Position numbers and translations under genes: made by a program. Source: Methanoculleus caldifontis (GTDB lineage: Archaea; Halobacteriota; Methanomicrobia; Methanomicrobiales; Methanoculleaceae). Taken from it: a DNA stretch of 58,207 bases. Where the stretch lies: the NCBI RefSeq assembly GCF_032842345.1, contig NZ_WBKO01000002.1, positions 1-58,207 on the forward strand, in the 5' to 3' direction. Position 1 is the stretch's first letter; the number at the start of each line of letters is the position of its first letter. Under the pieces are notes generated by a model. The model had not been told where the DNA came from. It ran no database searches and saw only the letters and a list, made by a program, of their open reading frames with translations. Of this stretch, positions 55,622 to 58,207 are shown piece after piece.

Positions 55622-56356
55622 ATGCTCACGGACCGGGAACTGGAACGCTATCGGCGGCAGATCGCGCTCTTCGGAGAGGATGCCCAGGAGCGATTGAAGA
55701 AGGCGAGGGTCGTCATCGTCGGGGCCGGCGGGCTTGGCTGCCCGGCCGCTCTCTACCTTGCCGCCGCCGGCATCGGGGAGCTTCGGCTGGTCGACGGCGA
55801 CGTCGTGGACCTGACCAACTTAAACCGGCAGGTGCTCCATACCGATCGCGACATCGGGCGGGCGAAGGTCGAGTCGGCGGCCGAAAAACTCCTCGCGCAG
55901 AACCCCGATCTCAGGGCTGTTTCGATCCGTGCGACCGTCGACGAGGAGAATGCCACTGAGATCGCGGGCGGGGCCGATCTCATCATCGACGCCGCCGATA
56001 ACTTCCGGGTGCGCTATACCCTCAACCGGGTGGCGCTCCATGCGGGCATTCCGCTCATTCACGGGGCGGTGAGGGGGTTCGACGGACAGGCGACGACGAT
56101 CGTCCCCGGCCGGACGGCCTGCCTCGAATGTATCTTCCCGACACCCCCGCCCGGCGAGAGCGTCATCCCCGTGGTCGGGACCACGGCCGGGATCATCGGG
56201 CTCGTCCAGGCGAACGAGGCGATCAAGTATATCACCGGGACCGGCGACCTTCTCACGAACCGGCTGCTCATCTGGGACGGGCGGGCCGCCACGATGGCGA
56301 CCCTGCCGGTCGAGCGGCAGGAGGAGTGCGGCGCGTGCGGGACCGATCGGTGTTGA
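55622..56356 (+). CDS. moeB: Adenylyltransferase activating MoaD/ThiS-type proteins
   Basis: 244 residues, HesA/MoeB/ThiF family. VVIVGAGGLGCPAA (GxGGxG at 34-39) binds ATP; DVVDLTNLNRQVLHTDRDIGRAK and AADNFRVRY are family hallmarks; TACLEC and EECGAC form the zinc site. It adenylates the C-terminal glycine of the small carrier protein encoded next. Ribosome site GGAGGAGAG. First gene of moeB-moaD-moaE. This set serves the molybdopterin cofactor, which formate dehydrogenase requires. Confidence 0.93.
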   Translation: MLTDRELERYRRQIALFGEDAQERLKKARVVIVGAGGLGCPAALYLAAAGIGELRLVDGDVVDLTNLNRQVLHTDRDIGRAKVESAAEKLLAQNPDLRAVSIRATVDEENATEIAGGADLIIDAADNFRVRYTLNRVALHAGIPLIHGAVRGFDGQATTIVPGRTACLECIFPTPPPGESVIPVVGTTAGIIGLVQANEAIKYITGTGDLLTNRLLIWDGRAATMATLPVERQEECGACGTDRC

Positions 56357-56366
56357 GGAGCGGAAG

Positions 56367-56645
56367 ATGCAGGTTAGAGTAAGGGCGTTTGCCCGGTTGA
56401 GGGAGGCCATCGGGGGGGACCTGACGCTTGAGACCCCCCAGGGCACGACGATGAGCGGGCTGCTTGCGGCGGTCGGCGACGTATCGAGAGATGCTCATGA
56501 GGCGCTCTTCGAGGAGAGCGGGGAACTCAGGGGATACGTGATCCTGATGCACAACGGCAGGCGCGTCCGGCGTGCGGAGGCGGCGACGCTCACCCTCGCC
56601 GAAGGCGACGAGGTCGCGCTCTTCCCGCCGGTGGCGGGCGGGTGA
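56367..56645 (+). CDS. moaD: Molybdopterin synthase sulfur carrier, small subunit
   Basis: 92 residues, ubiquitin-like fold: VRVRAFARLREAIGGD at the front and ALFPPVAGG at the end; the last GG is the site of adenylation and thiocarboxylate formation. It gives sulfur to MoaE for the dithiolene of the pterin cofactor. It may also act as a SAMP-like protein modifier, as in haloarchaea. Ten bases after the moeB stop, overlapping the GTG of the moaE frame by the stop codon. Confidence 0.93.
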   Translation: MQVRVRAFARLREAIGGDLTLETPQGTTMSGLLAAVGDVSRDAHEALFEESGELRGYVILMHNGRRVRRAEAATLTLAEGDEVALFPPVAGG

Positions 56646-56659
56646 CGGAGGAGATCAAC

Positions 56660-57067
56660 ATGATCAGCGTAACAAGAGACGATTTTGATCTGAACGCCGA
56701 GATCGACCGGGTAAGAAGGCCGGACATGGGTGGCCTGGTCACCTTCCTCGGCGTCGTCAGGGACGAGGGCGGTCTTGAGGCGATGGAACTCGAGGCCTAC
56801 GAGGAGGTTGCGGTGAAGGAGATGGAGACGATCCGGGACGAGGCGTTTGCAAAGTTCCCGATCGGGGCCGTCACCGTCATTCACCGGATCGGCCGGCTCC
56901 GGGTCGGCGAGAACATCCTTCTCATCGTCGTCGGCGCCGGGCACCGGAAAGAGGCGTTTGAGGCCTGTGAGTATATCCTCGAGCGGATCAAGGAGAGCGT
57001 GCCGATCTGGAAGAAGGAGATCGGGGAGGGCGGCGAGCGCTGGGTGCCGGGGGACTCCGGAAAGTAG
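56660..57067 (+). CDS. moaE: Molybdopterin synthase catalytic subunit
   Basis: 135 residues from ATG 56660; GGAGGAG lies six bases upstream, which favours this over GTG 56642. GGLVTFLGVVRDE near residue 25, LEAYEEVAVKEM, VTVIHRIGRLRVGEN and the end VPIWKKE include the conserved Lys and Arg of the active site. It puts two sulfurs into precursor Z to give molybdopterin. The operon stops at a T-run (57073-57080). Confidence 0.95.
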   Translation: MISVTRDDFDLNAEIDRVRRPDMGGLVTFLGVVRDEGGLEAMELEAYEEVAVKEMETIRDEAFAKFPIGAVTVIHRIGRLRVGENILLIVVGAGHRKEAFEACEYILERIKESVPIWKKEIGEGGERWVPGDSGK

Positions 57068-57503: not shown

Positions 57504-57516
57504 GATATAAATATTC
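57504..57516 (+). promoter_or_regulatory. TATA box of the tRNA-Cys/SepCysS unit
   Basis: GATATAAATATTC; transcription should start near 57535, about 33 bases before the mature tRNA. Confidence 0.65.
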
Positions 57517-57557
57517 ACAATTGTTATCTATGATGGGTGAGATTAACAATTGTTAAT
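57517..57557. promoter_or_regulatory. Paired palindromes around the tRNA-Cys transcription start
   Basis: ACAATTGT at 57517-57524 and again inside the perfect 16-base palindrome ATTAACAATTGTTAAT at 57542-57557. The two centres are 29 bases apart; one lies between TATA box and start, the other in the leader. Layout fits an operator for a dimeric repressor. Confidence 0.5.
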
Positions 57558-57567
57558 TCATACCCTT

Positions 57568-57639
57568 GCCGAGGTGGCGGAACGGCTACGCGGTTGACTG
57601 CAGATCAACTCCATCCCGGTTCGACTCCGGGCCTCGGCT
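57568..57639 (+). tRNA. tRNA-Cys (GCA)
   Basis: 72 bases, no encoded CCA. Acceptor stem GCCGAGG/CCTCGGC is seven perfect pairs, D arm GCG...CGC, anticodon stem GTTGA/TCAAC around loop CTGCAGA with anticodon GCA, T arm CCCGG-TTCGACT-CCGGG, discriminator T. Reads UGC and UGU. In methanogens this tRNA is charged with phosphoserine by SepRS and converted to Cys-tRNA by SepCysS, encoded four bases further on. Confidence 0.95.
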
Positions 57640-57643
57640 CTCC

Positions 57644-58207
57644 ATGAAGGAACAGATCCAGAAGACGTTCGAAGCGCTCTTCGCGCTCGAGGATATCCGG
57701 GAAGTGCTCCGGGAGGCGCTCCCGACCGGCCCGGATCCCGCCGAAGAGCAGGCGATCCGGGAGGGTGTCGCCCGGGTCCGTGCCGTCCTCGACGACCTGG
57801 AGGCCGGGACGGGCTCTCCGCAGGTCACGAAGATCGCAGGCAGCCTCGATATCCGGAACAGGGAAGAGGCGTATATCAATATCCAGCCGATCCAGGCCGC
57901 CGGCCGCCTGACCCTCGAGGCCCGGAAGGCCCTCATCGCCTACGGCGACGGTTACTCCACCTGCGACGCCTGCCGCAAACCCTTCCGTCTCGACCAGATT
58001 ACAAAGCCCCCCATCGCGGCGTTTCACGAGGATCTTGCCCGGTTCCTGAATATGGACGTGGTCCGCGTCGTTCCCGGCGCCCGCCGTGGGTTCCAGGCGG
58101 TCGCCTCCACGCTCGTCAAGCCGGGCGACCCGGTCATCGTCTCGGCTCTCGCCCACTACACGGAGTTCCTGGCCGTCGAAGGGGCGGGAGGCGTGGTGAA
58201 GGAGGTC
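57644..58207 (+). CDS. pscS: Sep-tRNA:Cys-tRNA synthase, N-terminal 188 residues
   Basis: The frame is open to the window end. From residue 75, EEAYINIQPIQAAGRLTLEARKAL then YGDGYSTCDAC (C107, C110 = catalytic Cys pair), FHEDLARFLNMDVVRVVPGARRGFQAV match SepCysS, a PLP enzyme that turns phosphoseryl-tRNA-Cys into Cys-tRNA-Cys. About 70 helical residues precede this core; they are absent from short archaeal forms and could be the SepCysE-like domain that joins SepRS (inference). ATG 57644 is 4 bases after tRNA-Cys, with no ribosome site, so tRNA trimming would leave an almost leaderless mRNA. Confidence 0.93.
   Translation, partial: MKEQIQKTFEALFALEDIREVLREALPTGPDPAEEQAIREGVARVRAVLDDLEAGTGSPQVTKIAGSLDIRNREEAYINIQPIQAAGRLTLEARKALIAYGDGYSTCDACRKPFRLDQITKPPIAAFHEDLARFLNMDVVRVVPGARRGFQAVASTLVKPGDPVIVSALAHYTEFLAVEGAGGVVKEV

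Follow-up and report, generated by a model that had tools for sequence, protein, structure and literature searches.

A tRNA-Cys gene heads a putatively operator-controlled sulfur operon in Methanoculleus caldifontis, and its trimming may release a near-leaderless SepCysS mRNA

In Methanoculleus caldifontis, a tRNA-Cys gene lies four bases upstream of a gene for SepCysS, behind a single TATA box and two copies of a conserved palindrome. We propose, with a probability of roughly 0.65, that this tRNA gene heads a sulfur operon under operator control and that trimming of the tRNA by RNase Z yields a near-leaderless SepCysS mRNA. The larger result lies in the promoter, the operators and the operon around the tRNA/SepCysS junction, beyond the spacing in front of SepCysS. 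The analysis started from a window of 58,207 nucleotides, which is the start of contig C2 (NZ_WBKO01000002.1) in a genome of 2.62 Mb that is 99.9% complete (GCF_032842345.1, here G000); the features described in the window are on its forward strand.

In the proposed scheme, one promoter (TATA box at 57506-57513) and the two operators would drive tRNA-Cys, SepCysS, metY, metX, DUF1890, DUF1894, thiI, cysK and cysE. As long as sulfur or Fe-S is sufficient, the operon would be repressed by a small HTH regulator that has four invariant cysteines; its gene lies 17 kb downstream, beside nifSU, and would be under its own control. Upon derepression, RNase P would process the transcript, and RNase Z would cut it after U73. 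Cleavage would free a SepRS-type tRNA-Cys, the carrier for cysteine synthesis, as well as an mRNA beginning with 5' CUCCAUG, on which initiation would be near-leaderless.

Results

The tRNA-Cys/SepCysS junction

The tRNA-Cys gene occupies 57568-57639 (54.1 bits, Infernal/Rfam; the ARAGORN boundary is one base longer). It has a GCA anticodon according to ARAGORN, G37, a U73 discriminator at 57639 and no encoded CCA. The acceptor stem (GCCGAGG/CCTCGGC) ends at 57638, which puts U73 at 57639 and the expected RNase Z cut at 57639/57640. The spacer CTCC (57640-57643) contains no 4-mer resembling a Shine-Dalgarno sequence (SD) and would be the whole 5' leader if RNase Z cleaves. Directly 3' of it, the ATG at 57644 opens the SepCysS gene, a start codon backed by the alignment of relatives, which begins at residue 1. 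The preliminary description of this DNA had given the same order of tRNA-Cys, CTCC and ATG and the same RNase Z site, and at the level of sequence these positions hold.

SepCysS is the first protein gene of the operon. The window covers the first 188 of its 455 codons (57644-58207), and the gene continues outside to 59011. Read past the window edge, the protein matches TIGR02539 with 414.1 bits (cut-off 365.25) over residues 70-448, preceded by an N-terminal extension of ~60 residues. In Mukai et al. 2017, the extension of clade VII SepCysS is named SepCysSN and called a SepCysE-like domain (PMC5424206); a phmmer search of the extension found here against PDB sequences gave no match pointing to SepCysE similarity. 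As partners of SepCysS, the genome encodes SepRS (708.7 bits, C1:381984) and the SepRS-type tRNA-Cys with G37 and U73. A second SepCysS gene, which lacks both the N-terminal extension and a tRNA, is located at C2:543526-544701, and two further tRNA-Cys genes are present (C3:5037 and C1:71944). Thus, the unit in the window is the sole source of neither enzyme nor tRNA. The idea that a common promoter provides tRNA and enzyme in equal copies is not supported, given these additional tRNA-Cys genes and the different stabilities of tRNA and mRNA. A tRNA-Cys gene precedes N-extended SepCysS in most of the relatives compared, several of which are metagenome bins, and the adjacency is evidently not a product of chance.

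Promoter, putative operators and predicted sulfur operon

The TATA box TATAAATA at 57506-57513 is the putative shared promoter, and its TATAAATATTC is kept in most relatives. With the normal spacing of archaeal promoters, transcription would start at ~57533-57537, that is between two copies of the palindrome TTMACAATTGTKAA. Putative operator 1 (TTCACAATTGTTA, 57514-57526) is located between the TATA box and this expected start site; it is conserved in relatives. Putative operator 2, the perfect palindrome TTAACAATTGTTAA at 57543-57556, follows 16 bases after operator 1, just past the expected start, and is likewise conserved. No operator palindromes are expected by chance in the window. In the 2.6 Mb of the whole genome, exact palindromes occur at only five sites (C2:57514, 57543, 66580, 68032 and 74617), all inside C2:57514-74630. 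These are the tRNA-Cys promoter with its two copies, nadA (66580), a radical-SAM gene (68032) and the intergenic space between nifS-nifU and an HTH gene (74617). In most relatives, N-extended SepCysS is preceded by this layout of TATA box, palindrome and palindrome whether or not a tRNA is present, and TATA box and palindromes are kept across loci of Methanomicrobiales and Methanosarcinales. Additional tRNA-Cys copies in two genomes (G021 and G031) also carry the palindrome 8-10 bp upstream. Within G031, four tRNA-Cys genes are crowded into ~3 kb (L221:4086-7183), three of them with the palindrome at this distance; one gene precedes ThiF-ThiS and another a second tRNA-Cys/SepCysS unit. We read the tRNA-Cys genes as part of a sulfur/Fe-S regulon.

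Downstream of SepCysS follow metY, metX, DUF1890, DUF1894, thiI, cysK and cysE, closely spaced, and then nadA on the opposite strand. MetY is of the O-acetylhomoserine sulfhydrylase type, metX is fused to CBS domains and cysE to an Fe-S assembly domain. Judged by this gene order, tRNA-Cys opens, as first cistron, a predicted sulfur operon of eight protein genes, from SepCysS to cysE, and has the appearance of a biosynthetic gene under regulation. The body of the tRNA gene is GC-rich, and the only TATA box as well as the conserved operators are positioned 5' of the tRNA, with none inside. The suggestion that tRNA-Cys and SepCysS form a single transcription unit is supported by this arrangement and would extend to the entire eight-gene operon, whose co-transcription we infer. 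Neither the two operators nor the sulfur operon figure in the preliminary description. Genes of the ThiF, ThiS and MoaE families are encoded on the same strand at 55622-57067 in the window and end ~440 bp before the tRNA promoter.

A candidate regulator

A small HTH protein of 107 residues is encoded at C2:74250-74630 (L153:9249-9630), divergently from nifSU and with the palindrome TTAACAATTGTTAA in between. It matches HTH_3 with 24.9 bits, and we presume a likeness to the XRE-type regulators with Fe-S ligands of COG2522. Residues C5, C87, C90 and C103 are invariant in nine orthologues. Every orthologue read has a palindrome upstream, and genomes of the genus that possess an orthologue contain 1-12 palindromes; six complete genomes of the genus that have none contain no palindrome or a single asymmetric match. 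The HTH protein is probably the repressor of the tRNA-Cys operon, and the signal that it senses may be the supply of sulfur or Fe-S.

Possible RNase Z trimming and a second SD-less junction

RNase Z from Methanolobus psychrophilus cuts CCA-less pre-tRNA to 100% after the discriminator (PMC7479834), and in Haloferax tRNA-processing enzymes release RNA that has been placed 3' of a tRNA-like element (PMC4946936). Leaderless transcripts make up ~15% of the mRNAs in methanogens (PMC5378194, PMC7531240). The genome studied here has an RNase Z gene at C2:482037-482942. The view that RNase Z creates the 5' end of the SepCysS mRNA can therefore draw on a methanomicrobial cleavage site and on the presence of the enzyme; cleavage in vivo would still be the step that we infer. 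The 5' monophosphate of an RNase Z product speaks against this view, as such an mRNA could be short-lived.

A comparable junction exists elsewhere in the genome. The analysis of tRNA/CDS pairs covered 46 tRNA loci. At L223 (C2:157485-158215, reverse strand), tRNA-Pro(UGG) is followed by TCAGC, five nucleotides without an SD, and then by the ATG of nth, the gene for endonuclease III (TIGR01083). Among relatives, 27 of 30 loci have a spacer of 2-8 nt here, and an SD is absent throughout; of 19 further genomes of the order, 16 have 2-9 nt, again SD-less (e.g. TA, TT, TGC, TTTTCC). A start codon a few nucleotides past a tRNA and without an SD, as in tRNA punctuation, is thus present at both the CTCC and the TCAGC junction. 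The stability of the tRNA-Pro/nth junction over the whole order makes near-leaderless initiation after tRNA excision credible as a general device in this order. Together with the cut of RNase Z after the discriminator, it renders near-leaderless translation of SepCysS after tRNA trimming credible as well.

Probable loss of the SD in front of SepCysS

In most relatives, the spacer between tRNA-Cys and SepCysS is 10-16 nt long, which corresponds to an SD plus its distance to the ATG (TGAGGTATCCCC, TGGAGGAATC, TTTTCCGGAGGCAATA). An SD match of 4-6 bases, 4-7 nt before the ATG, is present in 20 of the 24 spacers of at least 10 nt. The four-base spacer, CTCC or CTCT, is confined to G000, G003, G015 and G031. 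The absence of a ribosome site before SepCysS, as put forward in the preliminary description, therefore applies to the genome studied here and not to the family, and the four-base spacing is shared by these four genomes but not by most others. The short gap appears to be a derived state in four Methanoculleus genomes and resembles an SD deletion. As 20 of 24 longer spacers keep the SD, SD-less initiation is not the ancestral design of the unit; near-leaderless translation is plausible here and at tRNA-Pro/nth but no general design of the tRNA-Cys/SepCysS unit. A single loss of the SD was weakly rejected (AU p = 0.02) in an alignment with two fragmentary rows and a long outgroup, and we accordingly place little weight on this result.

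These observations bear on the strongest alternative, namely an ordinary operon in which tRNA-Cys and SepCysS share a promoter only on account of a compact genome. With its SD deleted, SepCysS of the window would be poorly translated, and its function would fall to the other SepCysS copy. Such a course of events would agree with the SD missing relative to close relatives, with the existence of a second SepCysS and with the presence of the unit in only ~8 of 35 genomes of the genus. It would also agree with the decay of related units: in SD-less G003 (L214), SepCysS is truncated to ~90 residues next to cysK while operators and tRNA-Cys are kept, and in G002 (L215) the operators are kept and the tRNA has a mismatched acceptor stem. 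However, dN/dS of SepCysS is 0.10-0.12 for pairs of SD-less copies, equal to SD-bearing ones (0.10-0.18 elsewhere), indicating that the gene is kept under the same purifying selection without an SD. Likewise, the start region of SepCysS is conserved, and the SD-less junction at nth is stable over the whole order. We consider the compact, poorly translated operon unlikely, at about one chance in five.

According to a second and improbable alternative, the leader tRNA is kept chiefly for its fold in the RNA or as a signal for processing, and less for its function as a tRNA. In its favour, the leader tRNA-Cys is degenerate at Methanosarcinales/Methanomicrobiales loci, namely L056 and L095 (both from Methanosarcina) and L120 (G096), where the SepCysS ORF and its SD persist. 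Yet Methanoculleus and most relatives preserve every identity feature (GCA, G37, U73 and a paired acceptor stem), and extra tRNA-Cys copies have been amplified under the same operator. Even less probable is a SepCysS promoter inside the tRNA gene, which contains no AT-rich promoter, or translation from codon 21, an in-frame GTG preceded by an internal GAGG (CTCGAGGATATCCGGGAA); against the latter, dozens of relatives start at the same ATG and conserve residues 1-20.

Discussion

Returning to the operator-controlled operon with tRNA trimming, part of its setting is already known. That clade VII SepCysS is associated with tRNA-Cys and sulfur genes in euryarchaeal methanogens has been published (Mukai et al. 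2017, PMC5424206), and tRNA-Cys and sulfur genes lie beside SepCysS here, too. The text consulted describes neither the junction with its SD-less spacer nor the operator pair or the regulator found here; it does mention a tRNA-Thr-ED gene (a small tRNA-Thr editing-domain gene), which was not found among the proteins scanned here, a subset of the ORFs. The Bathyarchaeota operon tRNA-Cys-SepCysSn-SepCysS-SepRS, described in the same paper, also has the substrate tRNA first and then its enzyme, whereas in M. caldifontis SepRS is encoded elsewhere and the downstream genes belong to methionine and cysteine biosynthesis. Our searches of the open-access literature found no description of the operators, the HTH regulator, the sulfur regulon or the SD-less tRNA-Cys/SepCysS junction, nor of the tRNA-Pro/nth junction or archaeal tRNA punctuation.

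In animal mitochondria, tRNAs punctuate the transcripts, and their excision by RNase P and RNase Z sets the 5' ends of mRNAs. Mitochondrial translation has been noted to be leaderless (PMC7531240). The likeness is that the mRNA released by tRNA excision would be almost devoid of a leader; the differences are that here a single tRNA heads a single operon, that relatives mostly have an SD and that the cleavage is a predicted one. Junctions of a tRNA with an ORF, and in particular tRNA-Pro/nth with its order-wide lack of an SD, offer a direct test bed for RNase Z as a maker of archaeal mRNA 5' ends. A tRNA co-transcribed or clustered with the gene for a protein binding this tRNA is also known from E. 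coli tRNA-tufB and archaeal pylT-pylS, which to our knowledge have longer spacers and no operator of the sulfur type.

Regulation specific to one tRNA gene is unusual; we know of no archaeal case. As tRNA-Cys is the carrier for cysteine synthesis, its induction together with SepCysS would be expected to raise cysteine synthesis. Indeed, free cysteine in such archaea can derive from Cys-tRNA (PMC8762117), which gives joint sulfur control of tRNA-Cys and SepCysS a coherent biosynthetic logic. Such control, if true, would explain when a second SepCysS copy is of use, by supplying the 'certain conditions' that Mukai et al. 2017 left open. We hold a wider proposition more tentatively, at slightly less than even odds: that in Methanomicrobiales tRNA-Cys genes are inducible within a dedicated sulfur/Fe-S regulon, with the four-cysteine HTH protein as repressor, and supply biosynthetic machinery together with SepCysS, and that in this order trimming of tRNA 3' ends normally makes near-leaderless mRNAs, as at tRNA-Cys/SepCysS and tRNA-Pro/nth. 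The latter would be the archaeal equivalent of tRNA punctuation in mitochondria.

One of the further tRNA-Cys genes (C1:71944-72017, L028) is of the other type, with A37 and apparently G73, and lies directly 5' of a CysRS gene (C1:72041-73105), with AAGGAG in the spacer. By its arrangement, this pair is a parallel tRNA-enzyme unit, presumably serving the direct pathway.
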